Assembly (NCBI GenBank): GCA_903882645.1
Contig: CAIRXZ010000035.1
Span: 1-37,187, forward strand
Direction of reading: 5' to 3'
Length of the DNA stretch: 37,187 bases
Source: an uncultured Acidobacteriia bacterium
GTDB taxonomy: Bacteria > Acidobacteriota > Terriglobia > Bryobacterales > Bryobacteraceae
Part shown: in pieces, positions 7,266 through 18,158 of the stretch
Layout of the letters: each line of letters begins with the position of its first letter
Numbering within the stretch: the stretch's first letter is position 1
Position numbers and translations under genes: made by a program
Notes under the pieces: generated by a model
Databases searched by the model: none
Told to the model about the DNA's origin: nothing
Seen by the model: only the letters and a program-made list of their open reading frames with translations

Positions 7266-7295
7266 AGGGTTTAAGGAAGTGAATCCAATACCAGC

Positions 7296-7302
7296 AAGGA
7301 GG
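7296..7302 (+). promoter_or_regulatory. Ribosome binding site that decides the PFOR start
   Basis: AAGGAGG lies six bases before TTG at 7309. The alternative in-frame GTG at 7279 has only a weak AAGGA directly against it. The start is therefore placed at 7309. Confidence 0.75.
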
Positions 7303-7308
7303 GGAGAG

Positions 7309-10868
<3,560 letters not shown>

Positions 10869-10872
<4 letters not shown>

Positions 10873-11885
10873 TCGACCTCAGCAAGACGATTGATCTTTC
10901 CACGACCTATCTGGGTCTGAAGCTGAAGAACCCCTTGGTTGCTTCGTCCTCGCCGATCTGCGAGGACGTGGGCAACGTCCGGCGGCTGGAGGACTCCGGC
11001 GCCGCCGCCGTGGTGCTGCAATCGCTGTTCGAGGAGCAGATCGAGCTCGAGAACGAAGAGCTGGACCGCTTCATCACGGAAGGTTCCGAGCTCTCCGCCG
11101 AATCCGTGACGCACTTTCCCGAGCTGACCCGCCGCGTGGCCGGGCCGGAAGCCTACCTCAAGCACATCGAACGCTGCAAGCAGGCGGTCGGGATTCCGGT
11201 CGTCGCCAGCCTAAACGGTTCCACCAAGGGCGGCTGGGTCGGCTACGCCAAGCAGATGGAACAGGCCGGCGCGGACGCGCTCGAGCTGAACATCTACTAC
11301 ATCCCCACGGACCCCGCCGTGTCCGGCGAGCAGGTCGAGCAACGCTACGTCGACCTGGTGCGGGCGGTCAAAGAGACCGTCGGCATCCCCGTCGCCGTGA
11401 AGCTTGGGCCTTATTTCAGCTCCCTCGGGAATATGGCCGGGAAGCTCGATGCGGCCGGCGCCGACGCGCTGGTGCTTTTTAACCGCTTCTACCAACCCGA
11501 TTTCGATCTGGAAGCCCTCGAGGTGGTGCCCAACCTGATCCTGAGCAACTCGCACGAGCTGTTGCTGCGGTTGCACTGGATCGCGGTGCTCTACGGGAAC
11601 GTGAAAGCCGATTTGGCCCTCACCGGCGGCGTCCACAACGCCGCGGACGTCGTCAAGGCCATGATGGCCGGTTCCAAGGTCGCCATGATGACCTCGGCGC
11701 TCCTCAAGCGCGGCATCAGCTACCTCGACACCATCGCCACCGAGCTGCTGGTCTGGATGGGCGAGCACGAATACGAATCGATCCGGCAGATGCAGGGCAG
11801 CATGAGCCGCCGGTCCGTCCCGCAGCCCGCCGCCTTCGAGCGCGCCAACTACATGAAGGTCCTCAGCTCCTACTCGATGAGGTAG
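10869..11885 (+). CDS. Dihydroorotate dehydrogenase-like FMN protein
   Basis: A 338-residue TIM-barrel flavoprotein of the DHODH-like family, with TTYLGLKLKNPLVASSSP at the start, GNVRRLEDSGAAAVVLQSLFEEQ, LELNIYY, VAVKLGPYFSS and a C-terminal phosphate-binding area (ALTGGVHNAADVVKAMMAGS). Proteins of this subtype often lie directly behind single-chain PFOR genes; the substrate is not established and pyrimidine synthesis should not be assumed. ATG overlaps the PFOR stop (ATGA) and GGAGGAGA precedes it inside the PFOR gene. The functional link to PFOR, for example as an electron-transfer partner, is inference from the coupling. Confidence 0.85.
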
Positions 11886-11997: not shown

Positions 11998-12180
11998 TGC
12001 CAATTTCTCTCGAAGTACCTTCATTGGTCCGTGAACGATGCGTTTCCTATCTGGGATAGCCAAGCCCGAAGGGCGCTGAACAACGACGCTGAAGTAAGTT
12101 GGGAATCCTATAGGGACTGGCTGATCTGCGTCCGGAAGGAAGCGGCAACGCACAAGGCCTGCTGTCTGGAACACGTCCGG
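11998..12180 (+). pseudogene. Fragment of an unidentified protein gene
   Basis: An open frame without a start codon gives SKYLHWSVNDAFPIWDSQAR and then VSWESYRDWLICVRKEAATH, ending near LEHVR at 12180. Composition and amphipathic pattern look like a real protein core (a hydrophobic/aromatic segment then a helix), but I cannot name the family. The frame begins right after TGA at 11995. Beyond 12180 it runs antisense into the antitoxin-like gene and loses protein character. I read it as the middle of a gene whose ends were lost when the neighbouring toxin-antitoxin sequence arrived. Confidence 0.4.
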
Positions 12181-12427
12181 CCAGCCCAAGCCTCCGCATG
12201 GATTCATCATGCGGAAGACCTTCACCGCCGCGCCGGGCGAGCCAGTCGCGCGCTTCGGCCGCGCCCTGCCTCTCCTCATCCGTCTCGGGCTCGTCGTCCA
12301 TGGGTGCGTTACGCAGAGCGGCGGCGACCGGATCGACGATCGTTTCGAGCAACCCGACCAAGGCCGAGACTTGGGTCTCCGGCAATCGGTCGATCAGGTG
12401 GTGGGCCTCCTGGCGGGGGTCGGTCAT
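12047..12427 (-). CDS. Antitoxin-like protein with an aberrant C-terminal tail
   Basis: Codes for 126 residues; only about the first 82 (12427 down to 12182) look native. They resemble the antitoxin at 16787: HHLIDRLPETQVSALVGLLETIV against HQLLDQLGPGQLAAVVHLLETMV, then EARDWLARR with PHDESMRRLGL against EADEWLKHN with PHEEVLAEFGL. The start is ATG at 12427, with GGAGG six bases upstream and TATAAT at 12474-12469, so it may be expressed. The tail (AGRVPDSRPCALPL onward) reads antisense through the fragment at 11998-12180, and the expected toxin gene downstream is absent. I infer an orphaned antitoxin truncated at its 3' end. Confidence 0.5.
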   Translation of the reverse strand: MTDPRQEAHHLIDRLPETQVSALVGLLETIVDPVAAALRNAPMDDEPETDEERQGAAEARDWLARRGGEGLPHDESMRRLGLAGRVPDSRPCALPLPSGRRSASPYRIPNLLQRRCSAPFGLGYPR

Positions 12428-12573: not shown

Positions 12574-13923
12574 CTACGGCCGGTTCGAATACTTCCGATA
12601 CAACTCCGTCTGCCGGTTCGTGAGTTCGACTTCCCTGCCCTTGATGTAGATGTGCTTGTATTCGGTCTGGATCTCCAGCGGGTCCCCGTTGGTGACGGTC
12701 AGGTCGGCCCACTTGCCTTTCTCGATGGACCCGATTTGGTCCGCCACGCCCCAGATCTGCGCCGGGTTGATGGTGAGGGCCTTCAGCGCTTCGTCGTAGG
12801 GCAGCCCGAAGGCCACGGCCGCCGCCGCTTCGTAGGGCAGGTTGCGTACGAACTCGTTGCCGAAGGTCCCGAAAGCGAACTTCACGCCCACTTTATAGGC
12901 TTCCGCTGCCAGCGTGTGCGGCGCGTCGTAGGCGTCGTCTTCGTTTTCCGGCAGCGCCAGCACGCGCCCCAGAACGATCGGGATGTCCTTGGCCTTCAGT
13001 TCCGGCGCAGCCTTGGCCACGTCGCGCGGCTGAAGGATCACGATCTTGACGCGCTGCTTGTCGGCGAATTGCACGGCGTCGTGAATCGCGCTGGCGCGGC
13101 TCGCGGAGATCGCCACCGGAACTTTGCCGTCGAGCACGGGAATCATGGCCTCGAATTTCAGGTTCCGCCGGAACCCGGGAAGGTCGGCTGCCTTGGCTTT
13201 CTGGTAATTGCGGGCGTCGTCGAAGAACTGGTTGACCTTGGCGATCTGTTCGTCATAGGTCCGCTTGGCCGCCGTTACGCCCGTGGCCGCGGCGCTTCCC
13301 GCGACCTCGGTTGGCGTCGTCTCGATGGCAGCGGCGCCCCCGCGGCCCGCGCGCGGCATGGCGGGAAAGATCAGATGAACCGCCGCGCCGGGCTTGATCG
13401 CCATGTCGTCCCAGGTCCAGCCATCGGTATGAATCAACGCGGCCTGTCCCGAAATGAACTGGCGTTCCGTGCCGCCGAAACGCCCGCCGCCACCGCCGCC
13501 GCCCGTGCTGCCGGAGGATGGAAACGTCATCACGCTGGTGATGCCGTTCACCCGCACCACCGGGAAGTGCTCGCTGGCCGGGTTCACCGCGGAGAGCGCT
13601 CGAAGCTGCGGCATGAACTCGCCCAGCTCGCCGGTATCCTCCGTCTCGCGCACCAATTCGATCTCCTGAAGGCCGAGTTCCGTCGCCGAATCGATCATGC
13701 CCGGATACACGCGCAGCCCCTTGGCGTCCACCACTCGGATGCCCTTCGGCGCCACGATCTTCGGCGCGATATCGGCGATCTTCCCATCCTGCACCAGCAC
13801 CGACACGCCCTTCATGACCGGTCCCGTGACCGGATACACGTCCGCGTCGCGGATCAGAAACGTATCGTTCGAAGCCGCGCCGGCCGCCAGGGCGCAGCCC
13901 ATCAGTAATCCGAGGAGTTTCAT
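12574..13923 (-). CDS. Exported amidohydrolase-like protein lacking the HxH motif (third in operon)
   Basis: A 449-residue protein starting MKLLGLLMGCALAAGAAS, a signal peptide. It keeps the amidohydrolase composite architecture: an N-terminal beta-sandwich strand set (LIRDADVYPVTGPV, VLVQDGKIADIAPKI), the barrel, and the C-terminal return (LTINPAQIWGVADQIGSIEKGKWADLTV). At the position where active members read PGLIDxHxH, this one reads PGMIDSATELG. The late aspartate region also differs (FGTFGNEFVRNL). It is therefore probably not a metal hydrolase. ATG at 13923 overlaps the upstream gene's stop by four bases. It is the last of three coupled paralogues. A binding or scaffolding role beside the intact middle enzyme is inference. 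Confidence 0.8.
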   Translation of the reverse strand: MKLLGLLMGCALAAGAASNDTFLIRDADVYPVTGPVMKGVSVLVQDGKIADIAPKIVAPKGIRVVDAKGLRVYPGMIDSATELGLQEIELVRETEDTGELGEFMPQLRALSAVNPASEHFPVVRVNGITSVMTFPSSGSTGGGGGGGRFGGTERQFISGQAALIHTDGWTWDDMAIKPGAAVHLIFPAMPRAGRGGAAAIETTPTEVAGSAAATGVTAAKRTYDEQIAKVNQFFDDARNYQKAKAADLPGFRRNLKFEAMIPVLDGKVPVAISASRASAIHDAVQFADKQRVKIVILQPRDVAKAAPELKAKDIPIVLGRVLALPENEDDAYDAPHTLAAEAYKVGVKFAFGTFGNEFVRNLPYEAAAAVAFGLPYDEALKALTINPAQIWGVADQIGSIEKGKWADLTVTNGDPLEIQTEYKHIYIKGREVELTNRQTELYRKYSNRP

Positions 13924-15269
13924 GCCGATGGTCTCCTTGCCGGCTGCTGCCGGTTCTGCTGCTGGTTCTGCTTCTCCTTTTCGATCAGGCGCTGCCTCTC
14001 CGTCTGCTTGGCGGCGGCTTCGCTCAGCGCCTTCTCGCGGTCGAAGTACACCGTTCCGTCGATCAGCACCTTGACCGTCTTGGCCGAAGCGGAAAGCGGG
14101 TACTTGTCGTAGATCGCGAGGTCGGCGTCCTTGCCGGCCTCGATGGAGCCGACGCGCCGGTCGATGCGCAGTTGTTTCGCCGGGTTGATCGTCACCATCG
14201 CCAGGGCTTCGCTTTCGCTCAGCCCGCCGTACTTCATGACTTTGGCGGCTTCGATGTTCAGGTGGCGCATCAACTCCGCGTCGTCGCTGTTGAGGCTCAC
14301 CAGCACGCCCGCTTTTTGAAGGATGGCGGCGTTGTACGGGATGGCGTCCATGGCCTCCACTTTGTAAGCCCACCAATCGCTGAACGTGGTGACGCCGGCG
14401 CCGCGGGCGGCGATCTCCTTGGCGATCTTATACCCCTCCAGCCCGTGTACGAACACGCTGATCTTGAAGCCGAAGTCCTCGGAGACGTGGAGCATCATGA
14501 GCAGTTCGTCGGCGCGGTAGCCGTGGCAATGCACCATGCGCGTTCCTTCCAGGATTTCGACCAGCGGATCGAGCCTCAAATCCCTGCGCGGAGGGATGGG
14601 ACTCTCGCCGCGCGCCACCTTGGCCCGGTACTCGCTCCACTCCGCCTGGTAGGCCTTGGCCTCGGTGAACGATTCGCGGATCACGTCCTCCACTCCCATG
14701 CGCGTGGCCGGGTAACGGGCCGCCGGCGCCGCCCCCGTGGCGGTTCGACCCGTCGGGTTGCCGGAGCGCTTGGGATTCTCGCCGAGAGCGAATTTCAGGC
14801 CCGGCGCCGCGCCTTCGAAGATCAGTCCCTGCGCGTCCTTGCCCCAGCGCATCTTCAGCGTGATGGTCTGCCCGCCGACGGAGTTGGCCGACCCGTGCAG
14901 GATGTGGGCCGTGGTCACGCCGCCCGCGAGCGCGCGGTATATGGCGATGTCCTCGGGGTCGATCACGTCCTTGATGTTCGTGATGGATGAATCCGAGATG
15001 CTGCCCTCGTTCACGCCGCCATCGACCGCAATGTGCGAGTGGCAGTCGATCAGTCCCGGAATGACGTACTGCCCGGTGGCGTCGATGATGGCGGCGTCCC
15101 CAGGAATCAGCACCTTCTCACCCACTTCGGCGATCTTGCCGTCCCGGATCAGGATGTCGCCCTTGATGGTCCCCTTGGTCACAGTCAGAATCGTCGCGTT
15201 GCGTATCGCGACGGTCTGGGCGCTCAAGGGCGCGAGCGCGATCATCGCCGCGAAGACTATCTTCTTCAT
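13920..15269 (-). CDS. Exported metal-dependent amidohydrolase (imidazolonepropionase-like; middle of operon)
   Basis: A 449-residue amidohydrolase with a signal peptide (MKKIVFAAMIALAPLSAQ). It keeps the metal signature PGLIDCHSH with H77 and H79, a lysine in GLKFALGENPK, later histidines in MVHCHGYRADE and VFVHGLEGYK, and an aspartate in SLNSDDAELMRHL. The C-terminal motif is ITINPAKQLRIDRRVGSIEAGKDADLAIYD-like. Family members hydrolyse cyclic amides, dipeptides or related bonds; the substrate is unknown, and the location should be periplasmic. The C-terminus is a Gln/Arg-rich low-complexity tail. It overlaps both neighbours by ATGA junctions. It is the only member of the trio with a full set of likely ligands. 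Confidence 0.88.
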   Translation of the reverse strand: MKKIVFAAMIALAPLSAQTVAIRNATILTVTKGTIKGDILIRDGKIAEVGEKVLIPGDAAIIDATGQYVIPGLIDCHSHIAVDGGVNEGSISDSSITNIKDVIDPEDIAIYRALAGGVTTAHILHGSANSVGGQTITLKMRWGKDAQGLIFEGAAPGLKFALGENPKRSGNPTGRTATGAAPAARYPATRMGVEDVIRESFTEAKAYQAEWSEYRAKVARGESPIPPRRDLRLDPLVEILEGTRMVHCHGYRADELLMMLHVSEDFGFKISVFVHGLEGYKIAKEIAARGAGVTTFSDWWAYKVEAMDAIPYNAAILQKAGVLVSLNSDDAELMRHLNIEAAKVMKYGGLSESEALAMVTINPAKQLRIDRRVGSIEAGKDADLAIYDKYPLSASAKTVKVLIDGTVYFDREKALSEAAAKQTERQRLIEKEKQNQQQNRQQPARRPSA

Positions 15270-16669
15270 CGGACACCTCCAGGAGTCTCCGCAGTCTGCC
15301 CCCGTCCCCCGCCCGCCGGGGGAGTCTCGGGCGGCGGGATGTACTTGACGCCGTCGACAAAGACCATTTCCACCTTCGTGCGGTCGTCGAACAGGTCGCC
15401 GCGGGTCACCACCAGATTTCCGATTTTGCCTTTCTCAATGCTGCCGAGCCGGTCCGCCACGCCGTAGATTTCGGCGGGCGAGAGCGTCAGGGCGCGGATC
15501 GCATCGTCCCGGGAAAGCCCGGCGTCGATGGCCTTCTTGACCGCGCGCTGCAAGTCGCGCGCCTGATCGAGGCCGTCGGAGTAGAGCGCAAATGGCACGC
15601 CGGCCTTCCGCAGCAGCGCTGGCGCGGATGCGGCCTGGTCGCGCGTCTGGAGCGTCCGCAGGCTCTCGACCAGCTCGGGATCGGGGTCGCGCGGCGGCTC
15701 CGGCCAATGCATGCTGACCAGCACCGGCGCGCCTGCCTTCTTCAGCAAATCCACGGCCTCGGGGCGGTAACCCTCGCGCACGCCATAGAGGATCGCGGGC
15801 TGCTTCAACTCGGCCGCGAAGCGCAGCATCCGGTCGATCTCCACCAGGCGGCCGGCGGGAAGCAGAATCCGCTTGGATTCCAAGACGCCTTCGAGCGCCC
15901 GATCGTATTCCGGCCGCGCCATGCCGCGCGGAGAGCGGGCATAGGCTTCCTTGACCAGGGCGTAGTGCTGGGCGTCGAGATAGACTTGGCGGACATAGGC
16001 GATTTCGCCCATGAGCGAGCCGGGAAAACCGCCGCCACCCCCGCCCCCGCCTCCACGTCCGCCGGCGGTCAGCGAAATGTACTGACCCGCTCCCTGGGCC
16101 ACCACCATCGCGCCGGGCCGTTCGGCCGAGAGCAGGTCGATGATGGCGCCTTGGCCGGCGAAGATCCCGCGCGTCGGGAACACGACGGCCGAAGTGAAGC
16201 CGGCCGCGCGCGCGGTGGCGATGCGCGGGTCGGTGGGCGACAACTCATCGGCCGCGTTCAGCCAGCTTGTGGTTTGCGGGCGGTCCTCAGGCCCGCGCGA
16301 GGGGGTAGTGGCGGCGGCCGGAGCGGCGGGAGCCGGCGCCGGAGTTGCCGGCGTAGCGCCCCGGCCGGCAGTGGCGCCACGCCCGCCGGCGGCAGCCGCG
16401 GCCGCGCCGGGGATGCCCCACGTGCTCAGGGCGTCGATCAGGCCGGGGTATACCGTCATGCCCTCGCCTTCGACCACCGCCGCATCGGGCGGCGCTTGCA
16501 CGTTCTCCCCCACATCGACGATCAATCCATCGCGGATGACTACCGTGCCCTTGCTCAACACCGGACCGCCGACCGGCACGATCTTTGCATTGCGTATCGC
16601 CACGGCCGTATGGGTTTGGGCCGCCGCGCAGGCGCAAAACAGAAGCAGCGCAGTTGTCAATTTGTTCAT
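15266..16669 (-). CDS. Exported amidohydrolase-like protein lacking the HxH motif (first in operon)
   Basis: 467 residues with signal peptide MNKLTTALLLFCACAAAQ. The N-terminal strands (VAIRNAKIVPVGGPV, VIRDGLIVDVGENV) and the C-terminal motif (LTLSPAEIYGVADRLGSIEK) are those of amidohydrolases. The metal site is degenerate: PGLIDALSTWG replaces PGLIDxHxH, although LYSDGLDQARD keeps an aspartate. Two low-complexity inserts are present, an Ala/Pro/Gly-rich stretch near residues 95-125 and a run of nine or more glycines near 210. It is the promoter-proximal gene of the trio; TATAAT lies 14 bases upstream of the ATG, and the stop overlaps the next ATG by four bases. Probably a non-catalytic partner of the middle protein (inference). 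Confidence 0.8.
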   Translation of the reverse strand: MNKLTTALLLFCACAAAQTHTAVAIRNAKIVPVGGPVLSKGTVVIRDGLIVDVGENVQAPPDAAVVEGEGMTVYPGLIDALSTWGIPGAAAAAAGGRGATAGRGATPATPAPAPAAPAAATTPSRGPEDRPQTTSWLNAADELSPTDPRIATARAAGFTSAVVFPTRGIFAGQGAIIDLLSAERPGAMVVAQGAGQYISLTAGGRGGGGGGGGGFPGSLMGEIAYVRQVYLDAQHYALVKEAYARSPRGMARPEYDRALEGVLESKRILLPAGRLVEIDRMLRFAAELKQPAILYGVREGYRPEAVDLLKKAGAPVLVSMHWPEPPRDPDPELVESLRTLQTRDQAASAPALLRKAGVPFALYSDGLDQARDLQRAVKKAIDAGLSRDDAIRALTLSPAEIYGVADRLGSIEKGKIGNLVVTRGDLFDDRTKVEMVFVDGVKYIPPPETPPAGGGRGQTAETPGGVR

Positions 16670-16689: not shown

Positions 16690-16786
16690 GTTCGATGCGC
16701 GGGCGGGGATGGGCCGCTCATTCGTGGAGCGAGGACAGACAAGCGGGGACCGTTCTGTGATACGATTCTTGACGGGGAAGAACACA

Positions 16787-17071
16787 ATGGCCCCTGAGAT
16801 CCAGCACGCCCATCAGTTGCTTGACCAGCTCGGCCCTGGCCAGCTCGCCGCCGTGGTGCATCTGCTCGAAACCATGGTGTCGCCCGAGGAGGACCGGGAC
16901 ACCCTCGGCAATGCCGAGCGCAAAGCCGTCGCCGAGGCCGACGAATGGCTCAAACACAACCCGCCGATCCCGCATGAGGAAGTCCTGGCAGAGTTCGGCT
17001 TGACGGCGGCCGACTGGGACAAGATGGGCAGCGAGCCGCTACCGGAAAAAACATCCGGGCGCAATGGCTAA
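16787..17071 (+). CDS. Antitoxin-like protein of a RelE/ParE-type module
   Basis: 94 residues. A helical N-terminal half (HQLLDQLGPGQLAAVVHLLETMV) is followed by an acidic middle and a C-terminal segment (PHEEVLAEFGLTAADWDKMG) of the kind that wraps around RelE/ParE toxins. ATG at 16787 is preferred over an upstream in-frame codon because GGGGAAG precedes it by a few bases. A possible extended -10, TGATACGAT, lies at 16758-16766. The stop overlaps the toxin start by eight bases, the usual tight coupling. A related but damaged copy lies at 12182-12427. No classical DNA-binding fold is obvious, so autoregulation is uncertain. Confidence 0.65.
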   Translation: MAPEIQHAHQLLDQLGPGQLAAVVHLLETMVSPEEDRDTLGNAERKAVAEADEWLKHNPPIPHEEVLAEFGLTAADWDKMGSEPLPEKTSGRNG

Positions 17072-17315
17072 GCGCATCGTCTGGACCAAACAGGCCAAGG
17101 CCGACATCCGCAGCATCGAGCAAACCATCGCTTTGCAGATCCTCAAGACGCTGGCCCGCTATACCCAGACGAGCGAGGGGGACACAACGCAGCTCACAGA
17201 CATCGATCCGCCTCTAATCCGCCTCCGTGCCCAAAACCACCGAATTCTCTTTCGCGACAAGGGCGACTACCTGGAAATCTCCCGCGTGTTGGACCGTAAG
17301 GAAGCCTACCGCTGA
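17064..17315 (+). CDS. RelE/ParE-family toxin
   Basis: An 83-residue basic protein with the RelE/ParE pattern: WTKQAKADIRSIEQ at the N-terminus (strand then helix), a second helix (ALQILKTLARYTQ), then IRLRAQNHRILFRDKGDYLEISRVLDRKEAYR, the beta-sheet and final strand typical of this fold. RelE-type members cut mRNA on the ribosome and ParE-type members poison gyrase; the sequence alone does not decide. It starts inside the last codons of the antitoxin gene. No partner other than the gene at 16787 is likely. Confidence 0.8.
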   Translation: MAKRIVWTKQAKADIRSIEQTIALQILKTLARYTQTSEGDTTQLTDIDPPLIRLRAQNHRILFRDKGDYLEISRVLDRKEAYR

Positions 17316-17574: not shown

Positions 17575-17778
17575 GTGCAGACAACGCGCAAGATCACCGT
17601 CGAGGCGCCGGCGGAGCTTCTCGAGAAGGCGCAACGAGCCACCGGCAGCGGCATCACCCAGACCGTTCGTACCGGCCTGGAGTTGGTTGCGGCGTCGGAG
17701 GCTTACGCACGGCTGCGCCAACTCCGGGGCAAGGTTCGCTTCTCGCGCAAGCTGGCCGATCTCAAGGCCGACCGATGA
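17575..17778 (+). CDS. vapB: VapB-type antitoxin
   Basis: A 67-residue protein starting at GTG (17575), MQTTRKITVEAPAELLEKAQ, a ribbon-helix-helix-like strand and helix. A second helix (ITQTVRTGLELVAASEAY) follows, then a basic C-terminal arm (RLRQLRGKVRFSRKLADLK) of the type that binds PIN toxins. No ribosome binding site is visible, and the -10 box TATTCT ends only seven bases before GTG, so translation may be leaderless. The stop overlaps the toxin ATG by four bases. Function follows from the family and the adjacent toxin. Confidence 0.75.
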   Translation: MQTTRKITVEAPAELLEKAQRATGSGITQTVRTGLELVAASEAYARLRQLRGKVRFSRKLADLKADR

Positions 17779-18158
17779 TCGCCGTCGACACCAGCACCTG
17801 GATCGCCTTTCTGCAAGGAGATGGCGGCGAGGACGCGGACCTGCTCGATAGGGCGCTCCAGGACCGGCAGGCGCTCATGGCGCCCGTTGTGCTCACCGAA
17901 GTGTTGAGCGACCCGAAGCTTCCTCCGGAGGTTTCACAGACTCTCGCGGAACTGCCTCTTATCGAAGTCACGCCTGGCTATTGGCAACGAGCGGGCGAGT
18001 TACGAGCGAAGGTGCTGGCGAAGCGCCGCAAGGCGCGCCTGGGCGATGCTTTGATCGCACAGAGCTGCATCGATCGCGGGGTTCCTTTACTTACGCGGGA
18101 CCGGGATTTCCGAGCGTTCGCCGAGGCTGCGGGCCTCGATCTCGTCGTTACGAAATAG
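17775..18158 (+). CDS. vapC: VapC-type PIN-domain toxin
   Basis: A 127-residue PIN-domain ribonuclease. Conserved acids are visible: D5 in MIAVDTSTWIAF, a glutamate in VLTEVLSD, D91 in ARLGDALIAQ and the acid pair in LLTRDRDF near 108-110. VapC toxins cleave tRNA or rRNA with a Mg2+-bound acidic site. It is coupled to the antitoxin by an ATGA overlap. Length is typical and there is no sign of damage. Confidence 0.88.
   Translation: MIAVDTSTWIAFLQGDGGEDADLLDRALQDRQALMAPVVLTEVLSDPKLPPEVSQTLAELPLIEVTPGYWQRAGELRAKVLAKRRKARLGDALIAQSCIDRGVPLLTRDRDFRAFAEAAGLDLVVTK

Follow-up and report, generated by a model that had tools for sequence, protein, structure and literature searches.

Our question is why three amidohydrolase-like genes should stand in a row, overlapping at both junctions, when only the middle one encodes a recognisable metal site. 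The genes, which we call A, B and C, lie in a stretch of 37,187 nucleotides (the window) from an uncultured Acidobacteriia bacterium of the Bryobacteraceae (assembly GCA_903882645.1, contig CAIRXZ010000035.1). The draft genome of this host amounts to 5.27 Mb, and the closest named relatives, among the matches listed, are Bryobacteraceae and other metagenome-assembled genomes of the Acidobacteriota. An initial annotation, made from the DNA letters of the window, had proposed a hetero-complex in which the two outer proteins regulate, scaffold or bind substrate for the middle one.

The answer that we find likely, with some reserve, is that A, B and C form one exported hetero-oligomeric amidohydrolase with B as the catalytic chain, C as its core partner and A as a later duplicate from the C lineage. 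The relatives we compared and the structure models give good support to a functional unit of the three, for which a hetero-complex is the likeliest form. Many phyla have retained A and C, often in fusion with B, so that the two probably help B to work and are not leftovers. In the arrangement we propose, B would be a metal enzyme whose ligands, read from conservation, are HxH, a lysine, another two histidines and an aspartate; its chemistry is read from the superfamily. C would be an inactive sister of B that adjoins it at nearly every place examined in the phylum and has a conserved pseudo-site of its own, and A, going by the tree, would have arisen from the C lineage by a later duplication, as a third subunit that is likewise inactive. 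Overlap of the genes, or their direct fusion, would keep the subunits in step.

The three genes and their products

All three genes are read from the minus strand, start with ATG and are transcribed in the order A (16669 to 15266, 467 amino acids), B (15269 to 13920, 449 amino acids) and C (13923 to 12574, 449 amino acids). The stop of one gene overlaps the start of the next by four bases, at 15266-15269 between A and B and at 13920-13923 between B and C, just as the initial annotation had stated. We placed the start of C at the ATG at 13923; a frame of 600 amino acids at 14376 to 12574 is the C frame running upstream into B. Where B has PGLIDCHSHI, and with it the only metal site of the three, A has PGLIDALSTWG and C has PGMIDSATELG.

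The Pfam family Amidohydro_1 (cut-off 25 bits) matches all three proteins, with 47.3 bits for A, 78.5 for B and 43.7 for C, which places each of them in the superfamily; A and C match through the C-terminal part of the profile only. Each protein has a short hydrophobic stretch at its N terminus that would fit export, and A and C thus look like export-type amidohydrolase paralogues. Export of all three is putative, read from these hydrophobic N termini.

Metal ligands in B and their loss in A and C

We compared aligned domains at six ligand positions, H77, H79, K159, H249, H275 and D329 in the numbering of the window B. The domains counted were those of at least 150 bits spanning at least 330 residues, at loci other than L067 (L and G numbers denote loci and genomes). 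Two loci are identical (L063 and L130) and two Rufibacter loci nearly so (L120 and L135); a recount drops L130 and L120, and the ligand picture is unchanged when such near-duplicates are included.

With near-duplicates in, the histidines of the HxH motif (H77-S78-H79, codons at 15033 to 15041, minus strand) are present in 132 of 132 B domains, as are H249 in HGYRADE (14523 to 14525), H275 in VHGLE (14445 to 14447) and D329 in NSDD (14283 to 14285). K159 in KFALGEN (14793 to 14795), the putative bridging lysine, is found in 131 of the 132, the remaining one having an X there. Without near-duplicates all six positions are complete in 129 of 130 B domains, again with an X in the remaining one, and the set is complete in the window B too.

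The outer chains are quite different. Aligned with B, the HxH columns hold L81-S82-T83 in A (codons at 16421 to 16429) and A80-T81-E82 in C (13678 to 13686), which agrees with the statement of the initial annotation that HxH and the other ligands occur in the middle protein only. Relatives whose outer genes keep both histidines were looked for and none appeared, either among the 111 A and 128 C domains or among the 109 and 126 left without near-duplicates. In the latter sets A has none of the six ligands in 98 cases, one in 7 and two, the maximum, in 4; C has none in 70, one in 38, two in 15 and three, the maximum, in 3. These counts for A and C depend on the merged alignment, where the last position is mostly a gap in A. 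Overall, columns conserved at 85% or more number 109 in B, 38 in A and 51 in C.

What C has kept in place of the ligands is a signature of its own. Just past the first barrel strand stand G84, L85, E87, D96 and E99 (codons at 13627 to 13674, minus strand), with E87 in 98%, D96 in 99% and E99 in 95% of the 128 C domains. Together with R124 these three acidic residues form a C-specific polar set at 95-99%, and three of the four come soon after the former HxH. Because the former active-site loop of C carries this conserved charged signature, contact with the substrate or with the active site of B would be likelier than a role as filler. In A just nine columns with polar or charged residues reach 85% (Q228, D232, R280, E287 and five more).

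We consider it quite unlikely that A and C still hydrolyse by means of a reduced or different site, with one metal, other ligands or none. Such activity could be argued for from the C proteins that retain two or three of the six ligands, mostly of the B-C pair type and in Bacteroidota, and from the near-invariant E87, D96, E99 and R124. However, 70 of the 126 C domains and 98 of the 109 A domains have none of the ligands, the few conserved polar columns of A speak against a site there, and an alternative ligand set was not seen, though no dedicated test was made for one. A and C lack the metal ligands that mark the amidohydrolase superfamily, and judged by sequence they are relatives of it by descent and not active members.

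Occurrence within the phylum and beyond

Whether the trio is conserved could be seen from 40 regions of the phylum, fetched around matches to A and then used to build family profiles for A, B and C. With these profiles all three were detected in 37 of the 40. The three exceptions are L033, at a contig end; L040, with A only and its B-C on another contig; and L067, without A. L067 (G006:C4, 3670-11367) has five tandem amidohydrolase frames, HxH-positive and HxH-negative, one of them a two-domain fusion, and looks like several live-dead systems adjoining one another.

Of 149 sampled genomes of the phylum, 64 have B, at 68 places in all, and adjacency at these was counted by hand from tabulated positions. 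C adjoins B at 66 of them, the other two (G052 and G017:C208) being contig ends. A is present in the genome for 55 of the 68 places, nearby on the same contig for 51 and on another contig in G039, G035, G098 and G025. Since C is at nearly all B places and A is missing at 13, the B-C pair appears to be the core and A an addition. In 12 regions of 13 from such pair-type genomes (L161-L172), B has HxH in 12 of 12. A first-strand motif without the full HxH is visible in the partner in 10 of the 12, four of which retain the second histidine; in L168 and L169 the motif was not found by the pattern used.

For the wider spread, named genomes were scanned with the B alignment, which covered the best 80 of 586 confirmed relatives, a list that favours close ones. 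A, B and C are all present in 72 of these 80 loci, a few of them partial, and in six of the 80 (L084, L104, L106, L119, L141 and L143) A would fall past the contig end. By taxonomy label the three occur together in 11 phyla, one of them doubtful. The only record from Actinomycetota is L098, titled Acidimicrobiia, a trio of separate genes whose B is 65% identical to the window B, and for that reason the bin may be mislabelled. A looser search gave a second tier of B-like genes of 263-316 bits, from which 18 regions were picked by hand out of a longer list. These were tandem or fused pairs in 18 of 18, and the partner motif was visible without HxH in 16, often with the first histidine retained; in L192 and L193 the first-strand motif of the partner was not found by the pattern used. 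Recurring across the phylum and beyond, the arrangement is more than chance.

Five plasmid records also match B, of which two are solitary, two are live-dead pairs in Sphingomonadales and one is a broken trio. The last, on a plasmid of Hymenobacter volaticus (L204, 2320-6738), is broken over several frames in A, B and C, from either decay or sequence errors.

Gene fusions and selection

Open frames were compared at those 117 loci where B is strong (500 bits or more, outside L067 and L161-L174). A frame here runs from stop to stop, so internal starts are possible. By this count A-B is fused in 50 loci, B-C in 15 and A-B-C in 6, giving fused frames in 71 of the 117, and the genes are separate or cut in 46. 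L137, of the Singulisphaera acidiphila type, is a natural A-B-C fusion. On a FastTree of B this amounts to at least 12 changes of architecture; with near-duplicates included the figures are 73 of 119 loci and at least 13 changes. Five loci (L062, L065, L085, L086 and L087) have the gene order B-C and then A. Because all neighbouring combinations have been fused, this is the strongest evidence from sequence that the chains work in contact.

The outer genes are also held under selection. Measured against L152, L153, L154 and L156, the ratio of nonsynonymous to synonymous substitution rates (dN/dS) is 0.21, 0.22, 0.24 and 0.31 for A and 0.15, 0.22, 0.30 and 0.36 for C, which is like the 0.20, 0.24, 0.24 and 0.35 of B. 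L155 was left out, as this stretch has no A of its own and its A row matches C. A and C are thus paralogues kept under selection without catalytic residues, as a pseudoenzyme beside its enzyme would be. The pairwise distances of A, B and C agree as well, with r of 0.78-0.86 over 103 loci against a permuted maximum of 0.10.

That A and C should be recent duplicates in decay is refuted as a general account, and we leave it practically no probability. The cases in its favour are a shifted A frame in L152, the sole one among the close relatives, and the plasmid copy of L204. The former shifts beside an ambiguous base N and in the latter B is broken too, and decay does not fit genes that are kept across phyla, with dN/dS like that of B and all three domains in 37 of the 40 regions.

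Structure models and structural relatives

Natural fusions allowed two chains to be modelled as one with AlphaFold2. The A-B fusion L126 (42 natural rows) gave a predicted template modelling score (pTM) of 0.85 and a mean predicted local distance difference test score (pLDDT) of 82.5. The B-C fusion L130 gave a pTM of 0.78 and a pLDDT of 76.8. Since freely oriented halves would be expected nearer one half in pTM, these values can be read as predicting a defined arrangement of the two domains. With fusions of A-B, B-C and A-B-C in nature and such models for two of them, the idea of a hetero-complex has gained support, as far as comparison and modelling can give it.

A barrel with a small beta domain is a candidate fold for A and C: strands and helices come in a similar order in both halves of the fusion models, but hits in the fold searches belonged mostly to the B halves. 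The closest solved relative by sequence is 3ooq, an amidohydrolase of Thermotoga maritima, for B (2.5e-63), C (2.2e-34) and A (1.6e-25). The B half of the A-B model matches it with Z 47.1, a root-mean-square deviation of 1.9 and 35% identity over 370 aligned residues, and the B half of the B-C model with Z 39.9. The nearest solved relative of all three chains differs from them in being one chain of 396 residues. After 3ooq the B halves match prolidases, adenosine deaminases, isoaspartyl dipeptidase, imidazolonepropionase and others at Z of about 25.

Origin of the presumably inactive chains

A tree of 111 domains puts 63 dead members (A, C, the C of pair-type genomes and second-tier partners) on one side, with a value of 91 in the Shimodaira-Hasegawa-like approximate likelihood ratio test (SH-aLRT). 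A is nested there in the C lineage, within starred sets of 45 and 50 rows. A smaller tree, to which solitary enzymes were added, again unites A and C in a starred set (98) and places the solitary ones with the live chains (94); the two trees are rooted differently. The value of 91 in the larger tree would suggest that catalysis was lost once in the dead clade. We infer a path that may have led from a solitary enzyme to a live-dead pair and from there, via duplication of the dead chain, to the trio.

Weighing the hetero-complex

Several observations weigh against a single hetero-oligomeric enzyme. Fused frames prove linkage and not binding of separate subunits, and matched divergence is expected for any linked genes that are inherited together. 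The models give pTM without inter-domain error, and the B-C model was built on 11 rows only, its five models ranging in pLDDT from 62.9 to 76.8. One partner presumed dead, L192_C2, groups with the live chains in the smaller tree (94). The title of 3ooq names no function, and the genomic neighbours of the trio are not generally conserved, the commonest recurring family being found in 15 of 136 loci.

The membership of the proposed complex is variable too. A is missing at 13 of the 68 B places of the phylum, where there are B-C pairs only, and two Armatimonadota loci in the best 80 of 586 (L093 and L097) have an A-B fusion with no C within the stretch. In G025 (L040 and L175) A and B-C are on different contigs, and because both contigs are large A is truly unlinked, a natural case of a third subunit set apart from the pair. 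Solitary relatives with HxH exist on plasmids of Acetoanaerobium noterae and Nonomuraea gerenzanensis, which means that the chemistry does not necessarily depend on a partner; the Nonomuraea gerenzanensis protein has its best score with the C profile.

These facts bring up the reading that A and C belong to the pathway of B but are separate exported proteins, for instance binders of substrate or product by way of the old pocket, co-transcribed for convenience. The unlinked A of G025 and the places with no A would suit this, and so would the conserved charged loop of C, as for a binder. Yet repeated fusions in all three combinations, together with the pTM of the fused models, exceed what co-transcription needs, and we regard separate proteins as unlikely.

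Known systems

Among the titles and abstract beginnings of the open-licence papers listed we found no account of a tandem, fused or active/inactive amidohydrolase pair or trio. Two leads were set aside. The metal-dependent bile salt hydrolase (metalloBSH) of Desulfovibrionaceae, a family with an extra C-terminal domain and residues that bind sulfonate (PMC13081902), is apparently a different branch, judged by its published description, and PMC7847538 deals with N-carbamoylputrescine amidohydrolase.

Some known systems are alike in principle. Prolidases, Xaa-Pro dipeptidases and isoaspartyl dipeptidases have the fold and the type of metal site in common with B. Heteromers of an enzyme and a pseudoenzyme are known, as in the mitochondrial processing peptidase, where the catalytic subunit is joined by a catalytically dead paralogue; that enzyme has another fold and two subunits, and here there are three. 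Dihydroorotase is itself a member of the amidohydrolase superfamily. According to one report, an inactive pseudo-dihydroorotase of Pseudomonas aeruginosa is necessary for the activity of aspartate transcarbamoylase (PMC7053772). A pseudoenzyme of the amidohydrolase fold can therefore be an essential subunit, and the likeness lies in an inactive amidohydrolase-type chain that is needed for activity. The difference is that the working enzyme in P. aeruginosa is an unrelated transcarbamoylase, whereas here the dead chains are apparently export-type paralogues of the live one and number one or two.

The same case could be turned into an argument that A and C are dedicated chaperones that help B to fold, to take up its metal or to be exported and stand outside the working enzyme, since pseudoenzymes of the amidohydrolase fold, such as this pseudo-dihydroorotase, can be required in assembly. 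Gene dosage of 1:1 and covalent fusion are ill-suited to a chaperone that turns over, and we hold this role to be very improbable.

Function and substrate

The profiles of known enzymes do not name a reaction for the trio. The imidazolonepropionase HutI model TIGR01224 (cut-off 298.15 bits) gives 58.4 bits for B, 38.5 for C and 33.2 for A. The Xaa-Pro dipeptidase equivalog of NCBIfam, NF051886 (cut-off 500 bits), gives 52.7 for C, 52.4 for B and 42.6 for A, so that B differs clearly from that enzyme, and every NCBIfam equivalog that turned up was far below its cut-off for A, B and C.

A few genomic neighbours point to peptides. In Qipengyuania a peptide MFS (major facilitator superfamily) transporter directly precedes B and then C, with the same four-base overlap of B and C as in the window. 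In Acetoanaerobium a Peptidase_M24 gene is just upstream of the solitary B-like gene, L046 and L048 have Peptidase_M20 genes upstream, and some loci have amino acid permeases nearby. Because the recurring families vary in distance and strand, no pathway can be read from them. The peptide hints amount to a few cases in 136 loci, chosen from recurring families and open to selection, and on that account we give an extracytoplasmic peptide-like amide, which these neighbours and the nearest functional folds (prolidases and isoaspartyl dipeptidase among them) weakly suggest, about one chance in three of being the substrate.

Neighbouring genes in the window

Upstream of the trio is a ParE-type toxin gene (17064-17315, plus strand; Pfam ParE_toxin), the start of which overlaps a small gene (region 16709-17315), and further on a PIN-domain gene (17775-18158, plus). 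The ParE-type gene with its small gene, and the PIN-domain gene, look like toxin-antitoxin modules. Small proteins with no Pfam match are encoded on either side of the trio, at 12047-12427 (minus) and 16709-17071 (plus), and resemble each other by eye (LLETIVDP and LLETMVSP). Another tightly coupled pair is found at 7279-11885 (plus), where a pyruvate:ferredoxin oxidoreductase-like gene overlaps a dihydroorotate dehydrogenase-like gene (Pfam DHO_dh) by four bases at 10869-10872. A promoter and terminator scan gave 1 and 4 matches against 0.5 and 3.1 in shuffled sequence, none of them of use, and Rfam gave nothing at its gathering score.

Implications

The core role of the B-C pair, with A as an addition, and the wide spread of the pattern go beyond what a single window could show. 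They invite a broader and more tentative claim, to which we give slightly less than an even chance. The trio may belong to a widespread and so far undescribed class of exported amidohydrolases made up of obligate paralogue sets, in which a live chain works with an old dead chain that helps to handle the substrate via a remodelled, conserved pseudo-site, joined in the trio type by a second dead chain derived from the first; it would extend over about 11 phyla, with every neighbouring combination fused repeatedly. Where annotation was seen, genes of this kind are called merely "amidohydrolase" or "amidohydrolase family protein", and pieces so annotated may be inactive when assayed singly. Should A-B-C or B-C be the working unit, assays of single genes of this family would fail or mislead, and the dead chains would deserve an annotation of their own. 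The solitary enzyme, the live-dead pair, the live-dead-dead trio and the fusions also offer a natural series for studying the evolution of hetero-oligomers that bear pseudoenzymes.

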